A DNA stretch of 64,000 bases from Plicaturopsis crispa FD-325 SS-3. Its lineage: Eukaryota > Basidiomycota > Agaricomycetes > Amylocorticiales > Amylocorticiaceae. Where the stretch lies: NCBI GenBank assembly GCA_000827205.1, contig KN832558.1, positions 185,462 through 249,461 of the forward strand, read 5' to 3'. The position numbers and the translations under genes are program-made. The notes under the pieces were generated by a model. That model did not search any database, had not been told where the DNA came from, and saw only the letters and a list, made by a program, of their open reading frames with translations. Positions 23,408-59,813 of the stretch are shown piece by piece. How positions within the stretch are numbered: the first letter of the stretch is position 1; each line of letters starts with the position of its first letter.

Positions 23408-25455
23408 CGGTGCGGGGATAGTACAGGCGCGACGTGACTGTGGAGGTTTTATCGTGTGGGCGGACAACCTGAACGCAGACAAGAAAGTCTGCGAAGGCTT
23501 TAAAGCGAGCTGCAATCAAGGTCTGCAGAGACTTCACAAATAAACTTGAAAAACAGCGTCGCATAAATAGCCAAGGCCTCGGCTGCATACTGTCGGGTGC
23601 CTTCCGTTAATATTGATGTAGAGCGTCAGAGTGATACACCGGACGTACACACGGGGGATGAATTGTTTTCACGAACCCGTCCGACTGGCTGATTACGAGG
23701 AAGACAGTTCTGTGAAGATCGCCCTTATTCAAGATATGGCATATGGACACGAACTTACATTCGTCGTGGCGTCCGGTGAAATTTCCAGCCCTTTTGACCT
23801 TGGTACTGATGGGGAATCCCAGGATGTTTGGTGGCCCTTGTCAGGCTTAGGATTCATAGCGGCTGTGTGCAGGACAGCCTTTGGAGCTTCGACCATTGAG
23901 GGGGCCTACGATTTGCAGCCGTCGAAATCTCAGCCGCTCCGTACGGGTCACCGACAAAGCCACATTGAATGTGAGTGCTTCTTCACTTGGCGGTAGAGTA
24001 CGTGCATGAGCGACGGCGTGAGATTGGATCAGCCTAGGCAATGTCGCACTAGCCACGTTCCTAGCTACATGACAGCGTGCAACAGTGGTGAGGAGCCTAG
24101 AAACATAGGACAGTCAGGATCCCCTGTGAGACGCAAGCTTACGGGCCAATAGAGGTTTGGCACCAACTTTTGAGCTGTCGTTTGGAAGAGCAGATATGCA
24201 CGACCCCCTGCTCTTGCTCTGATCCATTGACAAAATCGGCCTGGATCAGATTTAGTGGCTGCCTTGGATGTTTTTTTTCTAATATCTGGATTGTACCCAC
24301 CGTCGGGCCCGTAGTCTACTCGATCGTGGGTGATGGTTCACACCAGCGATTTGTCCACATCAAGCGCGGTGACGCTCCAGTGACGCCTGGCTATCGCGAG
24401 TTGATCGCGAGATATGTTTTTCTGGCATCACCAACTTGTCATCGACCTTCTGAACGGAAAACGATGGATTCCCATTCTGCCAATCCAAGCTTGAGAATGT
24501 ACCACCGACAGACTTGCCGACAGACAAGGAGATGTAGCAGCGAAAATAACAAGCGCAAGTCGCAGGATGTCTGATGCCTCTAAGCGGCGCTGAGCGCTGA
24601 GCAGTCCATGCCAAAAGTCAAGCCAGAATTATTTCTCCGAGCTCTGGCCGACGCGACTTGGACGCGAATGACGTAAGAGCCCAATAAGGGCCTCCAGTAA
24701 AACGCCGCCAAAATAGCCGGCCACGCGCGTGGCACCAAAGCGGTTGTGGGTCCTACTTATTTTCATTCGAAACAAAATCATGAGACTCTGGATTTCTGTG
24801 GTCCAAGCATGCATCTGAATCGGACATGCATTGATAGGACCCTTGACTATCGTGGTCCTGAAAAAGTACAACACATTCTGGATCGGCACTGACTTCCTGC
24901 CAGGGCTTGGGGTGCCCTGGTGTCATCATCATGCCGCACGGAGAATCGGCGGAGCCCACCCACGTTCCAGTCAACGATGTCTGTGAGCTATTATACGGTA
25001 CAGGCTAGCCGGTACGTTTTGTTGCCGACGTCAGACCTTGGTCAGACCGCGTCAGACATGCCAAAGCATGTCAATGACGAAAAAATTTCGAGGATTAATA
25101 GATTAATCGAGGACGCAATCAAAAATTGTGCTGATGGCCCCGGCCCCCAGGTGAGTACTTAGTGTCCATTGCCCAGGACTCCGTATCTGCATGCCATTTA
25201 CTGACTAGCGTTTTGTAGAAAGTGATGTTTTGTTTGGCGAGCATATAGTTCGAGGTGCGAGGACGGATTACATGTCGGTCAATAGACAAAGTCCCTATCG
25301 CGTGCAATAACAATGGTAGGTGTGTACACAGGTACGATGTTGACAGAGGCACATGAACTTACGATACATTTGGAATCGAGACTGCCCTCCGTCTTTCGCA
25401 AGGTTTGCTGATAGACTATCCGTCTGCCACGCGGGCTTTTTCTACCGCGCCAATA
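23408..25455. other. Gene-free region
   Basis: About 2 kb upstream of the GH16 gene (its promoter is at the left end). No supported gene. The open frame at 24920-25162 has no relatives I recognise and no clean intron joins. Confidence 0.4.
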
Positions 25456-25874
25456 GGGGACGTCAGAGTGCTCGATTCTGGCCGATTCTAAGGTCGATTC
25501 TGAGGCCGATTCTGATTTGGTTCTGGACAGAAACGTAGCAGAATCGAGGTATAGAATCGTTGTAGAATCGACTCGTAAACCAGGGGGGTCAGAGCTGCGA
25601 ACGATTCACTTGCTCGATTCTGGCAAAATAAATAAATAATAGTTTTGCTTACTTAGGTTTGTAAGTCAGTGAAGGCCGACGACGTCGAGAATCGACGCCA
25701 GAATCGACGATTCTCGACCAAGAATCGACTCCAGAGTCGATTCTCCGATTCTGTCGATTCTGTCGATTCTCGCGCTCTCTCGATTCTCTCCTCCGATTCT
25801 CTCAAAATATATCCATAGAATCGACTCGAGAATCGACCTCAGAATCGAGCAGAATCGAGCACTCTGACGTCCCC
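25456..25874. mobile_element. TA-flanked MITE (Tc1/mariner-like) built of GATTCT/AGAATC repeats
   Basis: A 419-bp foldback element. Both ends read inward as GGGGACGTCAGAGTGCTCG followed by ATTCTG (25 bp identical); weaker pairing continues for about 60 bp. It is bounded by TA at 25454-25455 and 25875-25876, the Tc1/mariner target duplication. The interior is almost wholly variants of TCGATTCT / AGAATCGA, twenty or more copies, turning from one orientation to the other near the middle. There is no coding capacity. Identical tips suggest recent activity. Confidence 0.85.
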
Positions 25875-25876
25875 TA

Positions 25877-26367
25877 ATGCATCATCAGCCAAGAATACAC
25901 AAGGGAGCTATATTTGCAGATTTTTCACATCGTATACGTTCAGATTGACATATGGCGATCGGCGATCTCAAACCTCTGCCTATCTTGGCTTCGGAGACAC
26001 GGAGAAGGTACTGGACCAGAGCTTGCTTTCGGAGCCGTCCATGATAGGTGTGTTTCTCCCCCCATTGTCGAGCGTGTGTTCCGTCTAAAGATGCGAATTG
26101 ACTCCCACCGAATGATTGTTCTTCTGCCCGATGTCACTCACACGAACCTGACAGATGTAGCGCTGGATGTCTCCGTGTCACTTCGGGGCGCGAGCACGAT
26201 TGCAGAATGTATCGTGTCGGACCCTGGAATCCGGCGTCGACTTTTGGGCACTCGCGAGCCCGCCAGGCACACGGAGCCAACCGCCATTCATAAGAACTTT
26301 TCTCTGCGGAGGAATGTAGTTCACACAATCGCACCGTCAATACCCTTGTGTGATCCACTCTCGAACA
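25877..26367. other. Promoter-side spacer of the glycosyltransferase gene
   Basis: About 490 bp with open frames on both strands but no family signal or splice joins. It probably holds the promoter and 5' leader of the gene at 26368. Confidence 0.4.
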
Positions 26368-49707: not shown

Positions 49708-50855
49708 CGCAGCTGGATAGCTCGAGAGGGAGAGTGTATGAGTAAGCGCTAACAACATTCCTGAGTACGTAGATTTAAGTAGCACGGATTTAGCGCGATA
49801 TAATACCGGTCACATTCCTTTCACCTTTAGCGCTGGTTAGTCTCCCGTAGAACGTTCCCCGACGAGTGAAGACGATCGTTCACTTCTGCTGCGTACAGGG
49901 CACCAACGTTAAGTATCACCGGATTAGATCAACCATTAAACACCGCTCACCAGGAAGGATATCCATATGTAGACGCTTTCATGATCAAACTCAAGTTTCA
50001 CAGGCCACTATCTGCATCGGGGCGAAACTTCGCGAGGACATGCATGCCGGAGACTCGAAGTAGAAGGGATGCACGCCCTACATGCGAAGTGTGACAGCAC
50101 CACCTCGAGGACCCCACGGTGCACGGAAAGATGCGGTGGCGCCTGCGTACTCCAAATGAATGTGAGTCACTAAGGCGGATGCATAACTGAAGTCATACAC
50201 GCTGTACTATACTCACCCGAAGCAGGTGCGGTGGTAGGATGATGGGAGGCATAAAGACGTGTGCACCGTGGCCGTCTGCGACGCAATGACGTTTCGGTGT
50301 TAACAGGAGACGCCTGCTCGATACGGTGATCGCAATTACTGGTGTTCTGAATCCCGAAAGTGACCGTGGCAGGAACAGGAAACTCCTATAAATGGCCCGA
50401 GCTTCCTTGCTATGGAATTCTATAAGCAGCACGAGCTGGAGATAGCTAAGCTCCGGTGTTCGAGCGCGAGATATGGAACTGTGTCAGTGTCTACCTGGAG
50501 TCCAACGTTAGATAGCTTCAAACTCAAAGATGACACGACAATACGCAACGCACAAGCCTACCAGGTAGTGCAGTCGGATAAAAGGCCAATATATTCACCA
50601 TGAAACGGGCCAATGGCTGTGCCATGCAAGAAAATTCGGTCATTTCATTGCCCTAGGCCCTGATAGACAAAAAGAGAAGGGAAGGGAGCCGCGAGCGAGC
50701 GTGAACTTGAAGAGTTAAAGAGTTGGAACGGTGAAGGAGGTATTCGAAGACGTTGCGGTGAAGCCTTTGCAGAGTCAAGAGGCGGTAGGAGGCGGTAGTG
50801 CTGACGCGTTGACGCGTGGCGTAGTCTGCTTTCTGACGCGTTGGCTTGTCGATTG
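49708..50855. other. Gene-free region left of the Mutator-like MITE
   Basis: Promoter side of kinase paralogue 4, then 1 kb with no gene. Near 50780-50850 short GACGCGTTG-type motifs recur, without clear element ends. Confidence 0.4.
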
Positions 50856-50864
50856 GTTAAATTT

Positions 50865-52018
50865 TAGTCTCGGATCCAGCCGTTGTCGGAGGTTGAAAAC
50901 ACACGACCCAAAACCTCCTACAACGTCTGGTGCACTCAGTAAGAGACACCCCCCATCGGGTCACTTCAGGGGCGTCACGCCCCAAAATTGGTACAATTTG
51001 TTACCTTCTGTAACCTGTGTGACTTCAGTCACTCCCGTGCAAGGTGGGCGCGTCGCGCGATCTGCACTGAACGTTTTGACAGACTACTACTGTACAGGAT
51101 GCGTCGAGTACGCGCATTACTTGACGCGGACGTCGAACAGCGCCTCTCGCTGGGCGTGCTTCAAATCTAGCTGCTCGGGCCTCGTCTATTGGTACACAAA
51201 TGCGGCCCATTGGCTCCCGAAACGCGTCGCGCTCCCGCTGTCCTCGGTCTTAATGCCGCACCAGATATCTCGGACGTCCGTCTCTCGCGAGAGAGCATGA
51301 CGGGTGCTCCTATCTTGTGCTCCATGTCCTCCGCTTGTAGGGAAGGAATATGGGCCGATTAGCTGGCGGTGGAGTTTGCTTAATGGTGTGTTTTGTGACC
51401 CTAGCGGCTCGGATTGTGCGCTGACGATTTCTGCCGCCAGCTGACTAGTACCGGCTCGCCACCACCATGGCCTTTTTTTCTTTTCGTTACATGCCCGCTG
51501 TATCGGCGGTTCATCGTCGCTGGATACTCCTTGCGCACATTGTTCTCGCGATTTGCTGGAAGCATATCTGCAACACGGACCTCCACACTGTGCCTCGAGT
51601 CTATCCTGCTCGTTTGGTGCTGGCCGCGTGCGTTTGGAGTCTTTGCTGGCCGCGTGAATGCATGTCATCGTTAAGCATGCATTTTGCATGCATTTCTGGA
51701 GATACTTACATGCATACCGTACACTCAAATTTACTTATTCTCATGATACGCGCTAGTTCGGCTTAGAATGTAAGCATTGGGCTACCTTGACATCGAAATA
51801 CGCACGCCGACGCACTCCGTGCATTCAATATCATTTACGAGTGCAGCAGCGGCAGCAGCAAGTGCGCTGTTTTGCGCGGAAACTCAGATTACTGCATTTG
51901 GGCCGTGACACCCCTGAAGTGACCCGATGGGGGGTGCCTCTTACGGAGTACACCAGACGTTGTAGGAGGTTTTGAGTCGTGGAAATTCAACCTCCGACAA
52001 CGGATGGGGACGAGACTA
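50865..52018. mobile_element. Mutator-like MITE with ~123-bp terminal inverted repeats
   Basis: A 1,154-bp element. The left end (50865-50987) and right end (about 51896-52018) are inverted copies; both begin TAGTCTCG and share stretches such as GTCTGGTG(C/T)ACTC(A/C)GTAAGAG and CCCCCCATCGGGTCACTTCA. A perfect 9-bp duplication GTTAAATTT flanks it (50856-50864, 52019-52027). Long inverted repeats with a 9-bp duplication are the Mutator (MULE) signature. Each repeat itself holds a hairpin, CGTTGTCGGAGGTT against AACCTCCTACAACG. The interior (about 900 bp) shows no transposase; a 180-codon minus-strand frame at 51186-51728 has no family signal. The repeats differ at perhaps one base in eight to ten, so the element is not brand new. 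Confidence 0.88.
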
Positions 52019-52138
52019 GTTAAATTTAATCGGCGCTTGAATGGCCTTGCAGCGTGAAGCAAGCGCGTCGACGGTGTCGCGCTTCATATACCGTACTCTA
52101 TGACACTGTAATATCTGAACAAAGCTCTATTTATTGAA

Positions 52139-55100
52139 ATGCCTCACGCCGATGCCGGAGTTCAAGCCGGACCACCGTGGGCCGCACTCTCCACCAAGCA
52201 AGTCACTTCTGATTCTCCTACGAGCCGAGAAACACTGGATGATATACTGCTAACGATCAAGAACTCTGGCTGGACTCTCGGCGATTTTCTGCAACGACTT
52301 TTCGTGAAAACCACTCGGAAGGATGCAGGACGATCGCGCGTGCACGCGTCTATCGTCTCGCAATTTCTATCTGGGCGACTCCCCGTAAAGGCTGAAGATA
52401 TCGTCGAACTAATGTACACGAATCACGACGGCGCGGCAAAGGCAATTCGTAACACGAAGAGCCCAGACAAGGAGTTGTCGGCGGTGCGGTTAGCGAAGAA
52501 ATTGAAAGAGAGGGAGAAAATGGGTGCTGCTGCACAATCGCGTCTGCGGGAATGGGCGATCTCGAAGGTGGAAGGTCTGGTGGACGGCGAGGCCGACGCA
52601 CTCTCGGGAAAGGAGGGTGGATTTCATGTTGCGGTAAAGGACATGACTTGGGATTTCGTCCACACATTCTCCTTTGGCGGCATCGCTTCTGCGATGCAGG
52701 AGAAAGCACCGACAACTTTACGGCTTCTCTGCGCGGCGGCTATGGACCGTGACCAGCGCAAGAAAGTCTTACCGTCCGGCTTAGCCTCATCCTCGTTTTA
52801 TTCCGAACACTTTGCGAAACCGCCCGCACTGGGCAGTGGGAACAGCCGCCGGGATCCTCTCGTTGTGAGTACAATTATCTGCTATATAATCGGGCGCTTT
52901 CTGACATATGGTTGCATGCAGATCATCGTTTTCGCGTTCGTCCTTCTCATGGGCGCGCGAAACATGAATTTCTCCGCTTTTCGAAGGATTTTTGGGGTCA
53001 TGTTGTTTGCCTACACTGCCCCACATGGACTCTATACTGTGCTATCCCGGCTGGGTGTATCCGTCTCATATACAACTGTTTTGAAACTTTTACGGCGACT
53101 CTCCGAATCCGCGAAGGAGAATGTCCGGAAAAAAGCCAAATCGCGTGCATTCCTGCTCATCTACGACAACATCAACCGCATGTCGCGCGCCTGGGACCCA
53201 GACGTGGGCCAAAAGGATATCATCCACAATGGAACGGCGGCTACGTATGTCGAGCTTGAGGATTGCGACGTCGAAAAAGCGTTCGATCCAAATACACTCC
53301 GTGCTGCACAGGAGGCGCAGGGGAGGAAGAAGTTGAACATCAATGTCCTACATGACCGAGTCGATTGGGGAAAGCTGAACAAGACACTTGCGCTACAGTG
53401 TGCTTTGATTTTGGTGGACCACGTTCCGACTCTCGATAAATCCAAGCGACACCGGGAAGTCCTGGAGCTACGTCTTCGTGTCGCATTGGCTATTCATCGC
53501 ATGCGTCGAGGCCGTAAATCGGGCATCTATCCTCTCGCAACATCAAATCACAATGAAGGTGTGACGGGGGAGAACGCGTATGTCCTCGATGATCTCGCAA
53601 CGCAGCTGGGACTTACCAAGGAGGAAGTCGCACGTCTCTTGGTGTTGATTGGCGGGGATCAGTCCACGGTGGAGAAACTTCGCGCCCTCAAGAAGTTCCT
53701 TGCGACTTGTCCTCACGGGTACTCAAACTACGGCTGGGTTCTACCGCTGATTCAATTATGGCACATGGGGTGGGCCGACTTGGAGCGTGTTCTGCGGACT
53801 CATTGGGGCGGGACTGGGGTTGATGACATCTCTTCGTTTCGCACCGTCAATGTGCTCCTGGGACGAAAAGTCAAGGACGAGAAACGGCCGGACTATTACC
53901 CCACGCAACACCTCGTATTTGATAACCTCAAGGTCGAAGTTTTGGATTGCTGGAAGTAAGCCATTGTATTCGGATCGGTCTGAATGTCACCGCTACGTAT
54001 TAAGCATGCTGATAATGTCGTCGGCAGGATCTATCTTGGTGCACAAGATCTCGACGAGTATTTCCGCGCACATCCAACAGAGCCGGAAGACTTGCTCAAG
54101 ATGGCGGACGAGCTCTATCTTCAGTACCTCACGACGGAGAGCTATGAGCACGCATTGCGGCCTGACAGCGAAGGGCCTAGCAAATTTGCCGCCGGCACAC
54201 CTTGGACAGACCGTAGGCCGCCCGTCGTAGAGGAGGAGTCACAACCTCCGGTGGATTTTGTAGGCGACCAAGTTCTCGCAAACACCATCCTGCGGATGCG
54301 TGATAGCTTGATCCATTACGAATTCCAGTGTGCGATCGCCGACGGTGACATCGGTCGCGCTATGAATGTTATGGCAGTAAGTATCGCAGCCGCTACATGT
54401 CAATTAATTTTGCACTAACGTCTCGCTGATGAACGTAGGTTTGGACATTCACGTTTACCGGATCCGGGAGGAGCAAATATGCAAACGAACTCCTCGAGCT
54501 GGCGTGTAATTTCGAATATGAATACTCCGAATGGCTTAAGGAAGGTGTACTCAACAATTGGCTCGTTAACTTGTCAGGTCTCGAGGGATGCTGGTTTCCA
54601 ATGGACCTCCTGGAAGAGAAGAACATAAAGCAGCTCAAGAAGATGGCAAAGCGACGGGACATATCATTTGGCAGTGATTTCTTTCGCGACATCGTGGCGT
54701 ACAATATTCGTGCTTTCCTCGAGGCAAAGAAGTCGATGGAATCAACGGTCCGCCTCGCTCACAAGGGCGGGTCGCACCGGCGTGCCAAGAAAGTTGCTGC
54801 CATGAAGAAGCTAACCACGGCTGTCGAAGAACGGGAACTACACAAGTTTCGGGCGGGGCGCACTTTGGGTCACAAAGCTCAGGATGACTTCGAGGTAGGG
54901 TACCTACGACTAGCGGACTCGACAAGGATCGAGGACTTCATAGCACGAACGCTTCGAGATGCTGGGGATATCCACGGGGAGGGTGACGATGTGGAAACTG
55001 AGATGGAGGACATTGATGGTGCGCATAGGGGACCTAGCATGATGATGAACGGTAATCTTGTTAATGATTTGGACTCCGAGCATGAGGACAGTGACGACAG

Positions 55101-55146
55101 CCTGAGTGGTACGGAGGATGGTTTAGATGAGGAGGAGGACGAGTAA
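52139..55146 (+). CDS. DUF6589 protein, possible DDE/RNase H-fold nuclease
   Basis: Function unproven. DUF6589 proteins are numerous in mushroom-forming fungi. Exons 52139-52864, 52922-53955, 54028-54376 and 54439-55146 join in frame into 938 residues. The first intron (57 nt) is also an open frame, so naive calls keep it; removing it restores 'RRDPLV|IIVFAFVLLMGARN', which fits the family better. Family blocks: 'LGVSVSYTTVLKLLRRLS', 'LLIYDNINRMSRAWD', 'LIGGDQSTVEKLRALK', 'KYANELLELACNFEYEYSEW' and 'VLNNWLVNLSGLEGCWFPMD' leading to 'LLEEKNIKQLKK'. D324, D488 and E762/763 are spaced as a DDE triad could be; that is my inference. The C-terminus is basic, then a long acidic tail. It is convergent with a RecQ-like helicase 183 bp away, and its start lies 111 bp from the Mutator-like MITE's target duplication. 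Confidence 0.85.
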
Positions 55147-55329
55147 AAGTGCAGTACTAGATCAGCTATGTAGGAAAAAATGATAAGTATAAGCGGCTTG
55201 GATAGAATTATCGCACAGATATCGTGCAGGTAAATTTGAAGTGAAGGTGACTATAAGAAAGAGATACCAAAAATTAAGGAGTCGGTGTGCATGAGAATGA
55301 ATAGGAATAGCTAGTAATTTTGTAGAGAG

Positions 55330-57987
55330 CTACCGGATGGTATGGGTGGCTGCAGCGGTGCGTGCAGATCTACGCAAGCCCGGAGCACTGTCATGCGGTG
55401 GGGAGTTGTTTTCCTTCCCCCGCGTGGACGTGGTAGACTATGATAAAGCAGTATCAGCAATGACAGAGGAGGTAGTAAGGCACTTGAGCTTACCGATACC
55501 TGCTTAGGCTGCTTGGCATGTACTCGAGCGCGCTTCGATAGTGTGTTGGGCTGCGATCCCAGTATTTCTCGCTTGCCCGCACGGCTAGGGCGTCGAGAAG
55601 TAGATGCATAGAAACGCTTTGGGGGTATGGCGACGGCAGGGGCAGATGCTTTGCGATTGGTAGACTCGTTGTGATGGCCAGGTGTGAGCGGTACTGCAGT
55701 ATTGAGAGCAAGGCGGCTCGGGGGCGTCTCGGGAAGACGCAAGTTCACGCGCTTCACTTGGTCAAGCCCTACGCCAGCTAGAGCAGCTTTGACGTTCGCA
55801 TCAGCCCTCCTCTGATCAGCGGCACGTCGCTTGGCTTTGGCCTCCTCGTGGCGGGCTTCGAGTTTTTCCCGCATGTTGTGGCCGAGAGTCTCTACAACAC
55901 TCCACAACTTTAAACCGAACGCATCCCAGTACCGCCAGCCCTTCATACGATTGGCGAGAGCCTCCTGTGAAGTGACGAGATGAAAATCCCGGGTAATAGC
56001 CTTGATATCGGTGCCCGTGAGAAAGCAGCGGGCGCTCAGGAAGGAGGAGCTGGCTAAAGCCTTTCTGCTCCGACGAATACCGAGCGCCGCGTCCTGTATA
56101 CCCTTCGCAACCTCGTCAACGTCTCGCACCAGGAGCTTCATATATCCTGGTGTTTTGTCCTGCCCGGCACTGGGATCCGTCACCTTCGCGACAGGTACTG
56201 TAAGCGGTCGGGGTCCGTCAATGGTCGGAGGCGGGCGACAAGAGCTGCAGCGTCCGCAATCCTGCGCGACACCAGGGTTTCCGTAAATGATATTAATTTG
56301 CCGTGTGATGCAGAATCTGCGAGCGTGGGCAGCGATGATGAGCTGCAACGCCGTACAAGTGGTTTTGACGGCGGTCACTTGTTTTGTCTTCGGTGGCGCA
56401 CTGGACTTCCCCTTCCCGCCGTTCTTTCCCGCCTTCTTTGGGACCTGATCTGCCGAGTCCACGTCCACGTCAATGTCCATCGGTACGCCCTGTTGCGCGG
56501 AAGCGTCCTCAAACACGGCCGGTGTCTCATCCAGCTCCATCGCGTCCCCGTCGTCAAGATCGGCGTCGGCCTCAACATCAATCTCCATAGTGTCCGAGCC
56601 CGGCGAGGCGCACGGAGCGTTCTCGTCGAACTCATCCCCCCTTAGATCGAGGAGTCCATCATCCTCTCCAGTAGAGATGTTGTCGGAGGCACGGTCTGTC
56701 TCTGTGAGTAAACGGGGATCTGGTGGGTCCGACGCGGCGTATATTAAAGCTGCTTTGGCGTCGTTTTTGGTGACATACACGATACATTGACCGCGCGAAC
56801 CGCGGGCGCGAGCAGGACGTCCTCCTCGCTGTACCAGAGCAGACGCACTGCGAACCTTCGGGTAGAGTACCACGCTGTCAATGTCCGCAACGTCTACCCC
56901 GACTTCAAGGACAGGACTTGTGACAAAAATCGCACATTCCCGATCGTCTCCGGTCTGATAGAGCGCAGCGAGGCTCTCGCGCTTGCAGTCCGGACAGTTC
57001 ATGGAGTGTACGTGGCGGATGAGGAGATGTGCGATGTGTCGTAAATGCGGTGGGACCAGTGTGCGCAAGTACACGGTCACTCGGTGCCCGAGATCGATTT
57101 GCTCGATGTATAAGAGACGTTTGACGACGTCGGAAGCCTTTGTGAGTGTACTGGGAATGAGCCAATCGAGGTCGCGGAACTCAAGACCGGTGCACGGATA
57201 TTTGACGTCCCGAAAAATGAAGTCGACGTTGTGCCGCTCGCAGTCTCGTCTTTCGAAGTGGAACGCGCCAGTTCGGAAGTCGAGCGAGCGTAGGATGGCA
57301 TCTGTTTGTCGCCCGGGCATCACGGAAGCTGACATCCCTACCATCGCAGTGTGGTCCGGTGAGCGAGCGCGCACCGACCAGATGTCCTTGAAGCAAGGGC
57401 GAAAATCCGCGCCCCACTCATCGACAAGATGTGCTTCGTCGACTACAGTTGTAGCCCATCGAGCACGTACGTTCGGGTCCAAAGTCCACGAGTTGAACTC
57501 GGCGGAGCTGAGAGATTCCGGGGAGAGCAGGATGACTTGGTACGTCCCCGTCTTGGCATCCTCCCAAAGGTTGTGGCCGATTTTCGATGCAGCGGCAAGG
57601 GTTTCAGCGTTGATGACAACGGATCTGAGTCCCTTTTGCGCTAGGCTGTTTGACTAAACGAAATTAAAACATGAATCCGAGAGAAAAACACTGGCAACTC
57701 ACCAGGTCGCTTTCGAGAAAGTTGGTTGGCTCAATGACCAATGTGATCGTCCCTTTCCGTGAAATAGCCGGTATAAAAATCAAACCAGACTTTCCATCTC
57801 CTGTAGCACTGACACAAAATACGTCCGTCCCATTGAGAATGGAGGCGGAGCATCGTAACTGGAATTCCGACGGTGTAAATGGGAGGGATGGTCGAACAAG
57901 ATCGCGCAGTTTGTCGAGCCCTGCCGGAGTGCTCCAGTCTAATTCTGACCGTCTGGACCAGTCGAAGGTTGGGTGTATCGCAGGCAT
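55330..57987 (-). CDS. RecQ-like DEAH helicase paired with the DUF6589 gene
   Basis: SF2 DNA helicase of RecQ type. Exons 57703-57987, 55500-57653 and 55330-55437 give 848 residues from ATG 57987 (MPAIHPTFDW). The N-terminus has a Q-like 'PFTPSEFQLRCSASILNG' and Walker A 'SATGDGKSGL' (Lys about 66), which departs from the usual GTGKS. Motif II is 'VVDEAHLVDEWGADFRP' with the RecQ-typical stretch after DEAH, motif III 'GMSAS', motif V/VI 'LEVGVDVADIDSVV' and 'ALVQRGGRPARARG'. At residues about 542-565, 'RRFC...CGRCSSC' matches the RecQ zinc-binding cysteines. A 100-residue acidic insertion (about residues 406-512) separates the helicase core from it. Basic helices and a last exon ('RGKENNSPPHD') follow. 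The gene looks intact. A role alongside the DUF6589 protein is inferred from position. Confidence 0.87.
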
Positions 57988-58363
57988 AGTATAGGAATTA
58001 AATAAAGAGAAATAAATACATGGTGTACATGTCGCGCCTGCAAAGACGATAGTGGGAGGACAGGGAAAATGCTCGACGCGACTTACAGCGCGGAATGATG
58101 GAAATGTTGGCTGTGTTTGTACACAAACGTGACATGCCGGATTGCCGAAGATCACCAATCGACAAGCCCCCCCTTTTAGAAAGCAGACGTCAGACAAGGA
58201 TATCCGAGCCTGCGAGGTTCAAGGAATTGTCTACTACCTGCCTTTGGGAGACTAGCGTGGCGCTTCAAAGTCCGCTTTCAAGGCAGCTGCAAAGTAATAG
58301 ACCGTACACGTCGTCGTTTGTACTGGTCTCCGACGCTGCGTGCTTATATAGCGCCTAGCAAAA
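57988..58363. promoter_or_regulatory. Divergent promoter region, helicase gene / SEC13
   Basis: 376-bp spacer between two heads. A TATATA at about 58345-58350 lies close before the SEC13 ATG, and an AT-rich stretch (58000-58020) lies before the helicase ATG. If the helicase/DUF6589 pair is an insertion, its right edge should be here. Confidence 0.4.
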
Positions 58364-59813
58364 ATGGTAAGCACCCTCATTTACTGCAAGAAAACCGCCT
58401 TAATTCTCCGTCTCTAGCCCTCCGCAAATGTTTCCGACTCAGTACCCATCGAAACCGCCCATGATGATATGATCGTACGTGCGCACTCACTTTCCGTGTT
58501 TTGTGCATGTTGACAACGCGGTGCAATCTACCAGCACGATGCACAACTAGACTACTATGGAAAACGGCTCGCAACCTGCTCTTCGGACAGAACTGTTAAG
58601 GTCTTTGACGTGATTGAGGGCGACGCGCAGCGATCGACTGGGGGGCAGACATTGAAGGGGTGCGTGGTGGTGGGCTGGCACAATATAGTGAAACTGATCA
58701 GAGCGCGTAGACATACAGGGCCCGTCTGGCAGGTGGCATGGGCCCATCCAAAATACGGCCATATCCTCGCGTCATGCTCATACGACGGCAAGGTTCTCAT
58801 TTGGAAAGAACAGCCAGGACAGGGTCCCGCCGGCGGAGGTTGGACGAAAGTAAAAGAGCACACTCTACACACTGCATCTGGTACTATTCCACATCACCGT
58901 GTCGGAGCTGCGCGTACTTACACTCACCTCCTGCAGTTAACTCTGTCTCGTGGGCGCCCCACGAGTTGGGCGCAATTCTAGCCTGCGCATCCTCAGACGG
59001 AAAGGTCTCCGTCTTAACTTTCAAAGGTGCGTTCTTCTCGGGCCTTGGAGTTGTTTCCTCTGCTCCTTGGGCTTCAAATAGCAGCACTCTGCTCCCCCTG
59101 CTCCCCTGCTCATATACCTCCACTCCCACCTTCTACCGGAGCATTTTATTCACCATACTGACATCGCCGAACGCACAGATGACGGCCAATGGGGCGCGGA
59201 TATCTTCGACGGCCACGCAATTGGATGCAACGCCGTATCCTGGGCGCCCGCAATGCAGCCTGGATCCCTCATCACCCCGCAGCAGAATACAACCATCCCG
59301 GGTCAGCCCCCTGCGCCCCTCCAAACGGTCAAGCGCTTCGCCAGTGCAGGATGTGACAACCTGGTAAGAATTTGGGGCTACAGGGAGGACTCACAATCAT
59401 GGGTGCCCGAGGAGACGCTCGAGGGCCACACTGACTGGGTCCGTGACGTGGCGTGGGCCCCAAACATTGGACTACCTCGCAGCTACATAGCTACCGCGTC
59501 ACAGGTGACTAATTTCTGCTCTCAAACTCCGTATTTCACCCACTGAGTGCCAATACGTTGCAAATAGGACAAGACCGTGCTCATTTGGACGAAAGACACG
59601 CCCACGTCTCCTTGGGTCAAAACGCCGTTGGATCCGTCGTCTGCGGCCCCCAGTGGGCCCGCAGCGGCTGGAAAATTCCCTGATGTTGTTTGGCGCGTAT
59701 CATGGAGTCTTGCTGGAAACATTCTCGCTGTCAGTTGTGGAGATGGGAAGGTAACGCTGTGGAAAGAGAACCTGCGTGGCGTCTGGGAATGCGTGAGCGA
59801 TATGACCAGCTGA
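58364..59813 (+). CDS. SEC13: SEC13, WD40 subunit of COPII coat and nuclear pore
   Basis: Sec13 forms the COPII outer cage with Sec31 and the Y-complex of the nuclear pore. The first exon is the start codon alone (ATG 58364-58366), followed by an intron and '[19 protein letters not shown]'. WD40 blades follow in order: '[20 protein letters not shown]', '[20 protein letters not shown]', '[14 protein letters not shown]', '[20 protein letters not shown]', '[18 protein letters not shown]', '[19 protein letters not shown]', '[12 protein letters not shown]' and '[20 protein letters not shown]'. Six blades as in Sec13, about 330 residues. Stop at 59811-59813. All junctions keep frame. It is convergent with MEF1. 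Confidence 0.95.

Follow-up and report, generated by a model that had tools for sequence, protein, structure and literature searches.

A DUF6589 gene and a RecQ-like helicase gene of Plicaturopsis crispa travel together in a DNA transposon, probably of the AcademH type

Two neighbouring genes in the fungus Plicaturopsis crispa, one encoding a protein of the DUF6589 family and the other a RecQ-like superfamily 2 (SF2) helicase, raise the question of whether they form a module kept by the host or the load of an element that moves. They lie in a 64,000-nucleotide stretch of contig KN832558.1 (strain FD-325 SS-3, assembly GCA_000827205.1, positions 185,462 to 249,461), here called the window, in whose numbering all positions without a contig name are given. 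We conclude that the gene pair is the cargo of a DNA transposon with many diverged relatives in the same genome, and that the window copy, at 50822–58254, is very probably a complete AcademH-type DNA transposon with two genes, one for a transposase and one for a RecQ-like helicase. An original prediction, made from the sequence alone, had drawn the unit at 52139–57987, which is too short at both ends.

The window element is a DNA transposon with terminal inverted repeats (TIRs), whose termini open with TAGTCT, differ in length and are bracketed by an exact 8-bp target-site duplication: GCGTGGCG occurs directly outside TAG...CTA at 50814–50821, and its second copy at 58255–58262. The left, short terminus (50822–50857, plus strand; TAGTCTGCTTTCT...GGCTTGTCGATTGGT) is on the side of the transposase gene. 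The right, long terminus has two parts, both read on the minus strand: an inner part (58154–58188; GTCTGCTTTCT...GGCTTGTCGATTGGT) that matches the left terminus, and an outer 66 bp (58189–58254; TAGTCTCCC...CTTGTCTGAC) that again open with TAGTCT, outside the shared inner block, and are also found alone elsewhere in the genome. The inverted match of 50824–50857 to 58154–58188 scores 37, a value well clear of the 28 that was the most reached by any of 200 mononucleotide shuffles, and the inverted termini agree at 29 of 35 aligned positions. We fixed the boundaries with the help of a 902-bp non-autonomous copy on another contig (C4:1164285–1165186), and then by TAG...CTA together with the exact duplication. 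This copy has both ends of the window element and a 9-bp duplication, CATCCACGC. When a nested element is left out, the first 57 nucleotides of the left end agree with one end of the 902-bp copy at 56 positions; at the other end, 121 nucleotides are identical in a 128-nucleotide stretch, with four mismatches and six gap positions.

The nested element is itself informative. It is a non-autonomous element of 1,154 bp (50865–52018) with 122-nucleotide TIRs that are 89% complementary, flanked by a 9-bp target-site duplication (GTTAAATTT, at 50856–50864 and 52019–52027), and it sits between the left end of the window element and the DUF6589 gene. Because its right terminus and the right end of a DUF6589-bearing element on contig C5 (C5:561588–569865, or C5:563) share 93% identity over 105 nucleotides, we regard it as a non-autonomous relative that inserted into the window copy. 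Six further non-autonomous copies of 968–986 bp, on contigs C20, C16, C23, C2, C8 and C4, have window-like ends and exact 8-bp duplications. All of these end-only copies (the nested 1,154-bp element, the 968–986-bp copies and the 902-bp copy) are probably mobilized by the same enzymes.

These copies bear on whether the window copy is a transposon that was later taken over by the host, with its genes under selection and its ends decaying. Such a takeover would account for genes that are intact when the inverted termini agree at only 29 of 35 positions, and for a nested insertion that parts the left end from the gene. However, a long end and a short end are also common to the element at C5:1217502–1223980 (C5:1219), the 902-bp copy and the six 968–986-bp copies, and for this reason we interpret unequal ends as a trait of the family and not as damage or decay. 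We give the takeover a slim chance.

Within these ends, both genes are open after splicing, in agreement with the earlier description of two intact, intron-containing genes. The DUF6589 gene, a probable transposase gene (52139–55146, plus strand), encodes 938 amino acids in four exons (52139–52864, 52922–53955, 54028–54376 and 54439–55146), its three introns having been spliced by eye; the assignment draws on the Pfam match, this splice model and candidate catalytic residues. All three stretches of the gene that were scanned match PF20231 (DUF6589), with E-values of 2.6e-47, 1.2e-20 and 8.3e-36, and the only other Pfam signal in them is a sub-threshold helix-turn-helix. Pfam lists DUF6589 under unknown function. 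The helicase gene (55311–57987, minus strand) encodes 875 amino acids in two exons (57703–57987 and 55311–57653), which give a stop-free translation after removal of one intron. Its product matches Helicase_C and DEAD in Pfam and, at 9.9e-15 and 54.3 bits, the recQ_fam model TIGR00614, a score under the curated cut-off of 219.8 bits. RecQ helicases were matched in the Protein Data Bank (PDB), the best of them human RECQ5 (3.5e-16). The alignment to RECQ5 holds GKS, a DEAH box and a C-terminal QxxGRxxR stretch, which we take to be helicase motifs, GKS being presumably the ATP-binding one. The earlier identification of a RecQ-type helicase is upheld by these matches. The two genes lie tail to tail, and 164 bp separate their stop codons (55147–55310) in our splice model, in place of the 183 bp given before.

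If the pair is transposon cargo, it should recur. We searched the genome to which the window belongs (33.2 Mb in 49 contigs; loci are named by contig and approximate kb) with a DUF6589 profile, and grouped its 56 matches by hand, which gave 26 places above the cut-off; a further weak place, C7:1702, fell under the cut-off and is outside the 26. Helicases were sought with four queries across the genome, a search that ranks the best candidates only, and with an iterated profile on selected loci. A helicase adjoins 20 of the 26 DUF6589 places, with the two genes convergent at 17 (C5:38, C5:563, C5:876, C5:942, C5:1219, C5:1382, C5:1723, the window, C23, C12, C28, C6:1631, C6:1243, C13, C4, C18 and C1:201) and divergent at three (C14, C15 and C1:2474). 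By our own arithmetic, chance would be expected to yield about 0.4 such neighbours within 10 kb on either side. Two of these helicases are incomplete: that of C5:563 is matched weakly and only at its beginning (5.6e-7), ahead of a run of N that makes up most of a 1,247-amino-acid frame, and the match at C1:2474 is limited to the first exon. No helicase was found among the best-scoring candidates beside the other six places (C15:5655, C2:515, C24:232, C2:2027, C2:538 and C1:216), all of which are partial DUF6589 domain matches. Conversely, helicases occur at C6:1124, C2:325, C37:36, C28:55900 and C3:1689 with no DUF6589 match nearby. Rare adjacency of the homologues would have spoken against the original prediction; in the fungus's own genome, adjacency is the usual state. 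No related loci were found in viral contigs.

The relatives also have ends. We scanned 11 gene-bearing loci for TAG...CTA termini that a direct repeat adjoins on the outer side, and found an exact 9-bp duplication with similar ends at eight of them, one each: C14 (GACTTTGTA), C15 (CCATTTGCA), C5:563 (CACAGCAAT), C5:38 (AGATCATAC), C5:1382 (GGGTGAGCT), C12 (AAGGCTTAG), C28 (GACTCCGAG) and C5:1219 (GGAAGTCAA); the window is the locus with 8 bp. The same scan listed duplications with one mismatch at five loci (one each at C14, C15, C28 and the window, two at C5:1382), which were not taken as boundaries because an exact duplication is present at each. When left flanks were crossed with the right flanks of other loci (110 pairings, 292,099 tests), no pairing combined an exact repeat with ends that agree at 7 or more of 12 bases; three exact 9-mers arose, none with similar ends. 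An earlier version of the scan, which had no TAG rule and required 20-nucleotide ungapped ends with an exact 9–10-bp duplication, gave one match each at four of 10 loci (C5:563, C5:38, C5:1382 and C12), with the same boundaries. In each of the eight relatives bracketed by 9 bp, the DUF6589 gene is accompanied by a whole or partial helicase gene. The elements measure 6.5–8.3 kb, except that on C12, at 16.7 kb.

Several of these elements have features of their own. The TIRs of C5:37259–43760 (C5:38) are identical at 100 of 100 nucleotides and, to judge by this identity, the element has moved recently. This element and C12:956923–973662 have TIRs that are identical over about 100 bp both within and between elements, and bodies that are only 81–87% identical, as if the ends had been homogenized or were strongly constrained. 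About 10 kb of inserted sequence (C12:~959550–969700) splits the DUF6589 gene on C12. Outside its own ends, the C5:1219 element lies between the arms of an inverted repeat, diverged and with gaps, that is about 0.9 kb long (C5:1216092–1217006 and C5:1224641–1225540); the repeat reaches the limit of the sequence analysed at this locus and could extend further.

Termini and duplications surround the pair at nine of the 11 loci, and short copies consist of the ends only; both facts speak against a stationary host or genome-defence module, that is, a nuclease and a helicase kept by the host. That reading could appeal to the two intact frames in the window, for which no close copy was found and whose nearest compared relative is 33–35% identical. 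We nevertheless consider it very improbable, and rejected a defence module on these signatures of mobility. For the window element alone, a domesticated single copy is possible. The original prediction had left the choice between a mobile and a genome-defence module: its mobile half is borne out by the 20 pairs and by the duplications of 8–9 bp at nine loci, and for its defence half nothing was found.

The two proteins have also diverged together. In nine elements with a readable copy of each, the pairwise identities for DUF6589 correlate with those for the helicase (Mantel r 0.954, a value reached in none of 5,000 label permutations), which suggests, at the level of protein sequence, that transposase and helicase work together. 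The set includes partial pieces from C23 (helicase) and C5:1219 (DUF6589); C5:563 and C1:2474 were left out because their helicases are incomplete. Identities between the more distant groups are 15–27% for DUF6589 and 20–35% for the helicase, and within the set the window pair is closest to C5:1219 (35% for DUF6589, 33% for the helicase).

DUF6589 is the probable transposase. In an alignment of 10 family members, a DQ and a following H are present in every row and YxxE in nine, the C12 frame ending before it; the D of a DN[IV]N motif is present in seven rows, the other three frames starting after that D. A nine-row alignment adds another invariant E, so that more than one E is a candidate for catalysis. 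These conserved D, D, H and E candidates fit a DDE enzyme, the label that the original prediction had tentatively attached to the protein and that none of our searches returned. In the mechanism that we propose, DUF6589 would be a transposase of the RNase-H fold (DDE) that binds the termini, excises the element and joins it to target DNA with a stagger of 8–9 bp. The helicase would be a part of the transposition machinery and would unwind DNA, either at the ends or where a gap needs repair; we assign it a presumptive role in transposition because it has stayed with the transposase in the nine elements compared.

To which known group could such an element belong? The AcademH lineage of Academ DNA transposons was reportedly described by Kojima in 2020 (Mob DNA 11:15). 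Among other groups, MULE/Mutator elements make duplications of about 9 bp and hAT elements of 8 bp, and neither a MULE nor a hAT transposase domain appeared in the three stretches scanned with Pfam, so that both groups were set aside. Kolobok elements duplicate TTAA, and on this count the 8–9-bp duplications of varied sequence rule out KolobokH, the other fungal transposon with a RecQ helicase, to which we give next to no credence. The nuclease of AcademX elements is XPG. In the available excerpts of the published descriptions, to which the following comparisons are confined, KolobokH is a fungal Kolobok that resembles our elements in its extra RecQ helicase, but has this helicase downstream of the transposase domain; a Kolobok of one red alga, like our convergent pairs, has its helicase on the complementary strand (PMC9587614). 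AcademX belongs to the same superfamily as AcademH but has a nuclease instead of a helicase and duplications of 3–4 bp (PMC10045372), and was ruled out by the 8–9 bp found here. Multiplied RecQ-type helicases are also described in Agaricus bisporus var. burnettii, where they lie at chromosome ends (PMC7473861); the window pair is situated some 0.24 Mb inside a contig of 1.96 Mb and includes DUF6589, and subtelomeric RecQ genes were rejected on position.

AcademH is the closest match. As described in the same excerpts, AcademH elements combine a transposase with a helicase and make duplications of 9 or 10 bp (PMC10045372), and are low-copy elements of fungi, Basidiomycota among them (PMC10799480); in fungal Academ copies the helicase is of the PF00270/recQ_fam kind, and such copies often pass for host genes in annotations (PMC6416283), and putative non-autonomous Academ insertions are reported in Marasmius oreades (PMC8290104). 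Our elements likewise have a helicase beside the transposase (20 of 26 places, with recQ_fam matched below its cut-off and RECQ5 as best structural match), TIRs (in the window at 50824–50857/58154–58188, and at C5:37259–43760) and 9-bp duplications at eight of 11 loci (8 bp in the window, none at two), and they share the low copy number, the PF00270/recQ_fam type of helicase and the liability to be taken for host genes. They differ in the 8-bp duplications of the window element and the six end-only copies, and in having one short and one long terminus. From the published descriptions and the structure of the elements, we judge that they probably belong to AcademH. The original prediction knew of no described element built from these two genes, which, given what is published on AcademH, was probably wrong.

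Several observations weigh against this interpretation. The likeness to AcademH is one of description, and the 8-bp duplication in the window falls just outside the reported 9–10 bp. Sequence searches of the PDB with DUF6589 gave nothing meaningful and no DDE fold, and a single-sequence AlphaFold model of 52922–53953 was unusable (mean pLDDT 39). The genes stand back to back at the three divergent places, and no duplication was found in the TAG...CTA scan at C1:2474 and C23. The TAG...CTA criterion was chosen after the first ends were known, and the correlation between the two proteins is partly carried by three close pairs (C5:38/C12, C23/C5:1382 and C14/C15). Alternatively, the transposon may be of the same type while its DUF6589 transposase falls in no described superfamily and its RecQ helicase was gained independently of AcademH. 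The unequal termini, the 8-bp duplications of the window element and the six end-only copies, the listing of DUF6589 under unknown function and its absence by name from the literature that we searched are all compatible with a separate lineage of this kind; the helicase content and the 9-bp duplications at eight of 11 loci, set against the excerpted descriptions of AcademH and fungal Academ elements, speak against it. We think it unlikely, and prefer AcademH. In that literature, no paper names DUF6589, and PF20231 appears only in an unrelated optics paper; as far as it goes, a helicase-bearing transposon may not have been linked to the DUF6589 family in print before.

The outer 66 bp of the long end pose a separate question. 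They recur at many of 40 listed genome matches, of which we inspected 18 picked by hand. Ten are 66-bp units that stand alone, or near variants of them, with an exact flanking repeat of at least 8 bp on both sides (L046, L047, L049, L054–L058, L062 and L063; the units at L054 and L063 are longer by some 10–15 bp), four run on into the inner block and are the long ends of larger elements (L051, L059, L060 and L061), and four are neither (L048, L050, L052 and L053). The scan tolerated offsets of a few bases at either edge and had no shuffled control, and an 8-bp match would arise by chance at about one place in 1,000 (our own arithmetic). The unit starts with TAGTCT and ends with GTCTGAC, and no inverted termini were seen in it by inspection. 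Either the transposition machinery can mobilize part of the element's end, or a tiny element of separate origin has the same sequence; we favour the former because the distant relative C5:1219 also has a long end. Tentatively, and with more doubt than confidence, we suggest that the long end has two nested boundaries and that its outer 66 bp move alone, with 8-bp duplications, through the DUF6589 transposase and the helicase, along a route that is one-ended or departs from the standard in some other way. If they are moved by the same enzymes, these solo ends are, to our knowledge, among the smallest mobile units, and would call for an explanation.

In the window, the element is flanked on the left by a kinase gene (PF07714) and on the right by a gene for a WD40 protein; of the earlier placement between a kinase and SEC13, the kinase stands, and the right-hand neighbour is established as a WD40 protein only. 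The right end of the element lies 110 bp before the presumed ATG of this WD40 (SEC13-like) gene (58254 to 58364), the promoter of which may be partly derived from the transposon end. Elsewhere in the window, at 25451–25879, another short inverted-repeat element has 63-nucleotide arms (87%), the ends GGGGACGTC and TA on both flanks; it looks like a mariner-type miniature inverted-repeat transposable element (MITE).

For DUF6589, so far a Pfam family of unknown function, these results supply a likely job, that of a transposase. TAG...CTA ends and duplications of 8–9 bp offer a means of telling DUF6589 genes that belong to transposons from those of the host. Annotations that count DUF6589 or RecQ-like genes as host genes, or that interpret RecQ expansions as part of the host's biology, may have to be corrected. 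P. crispa has intact elements alongside diverged subfamilies and copies reduced to their ends, all in a single 33-Mb genome, and so provides a good set in which to study the role of a helicase in DNA transposition.

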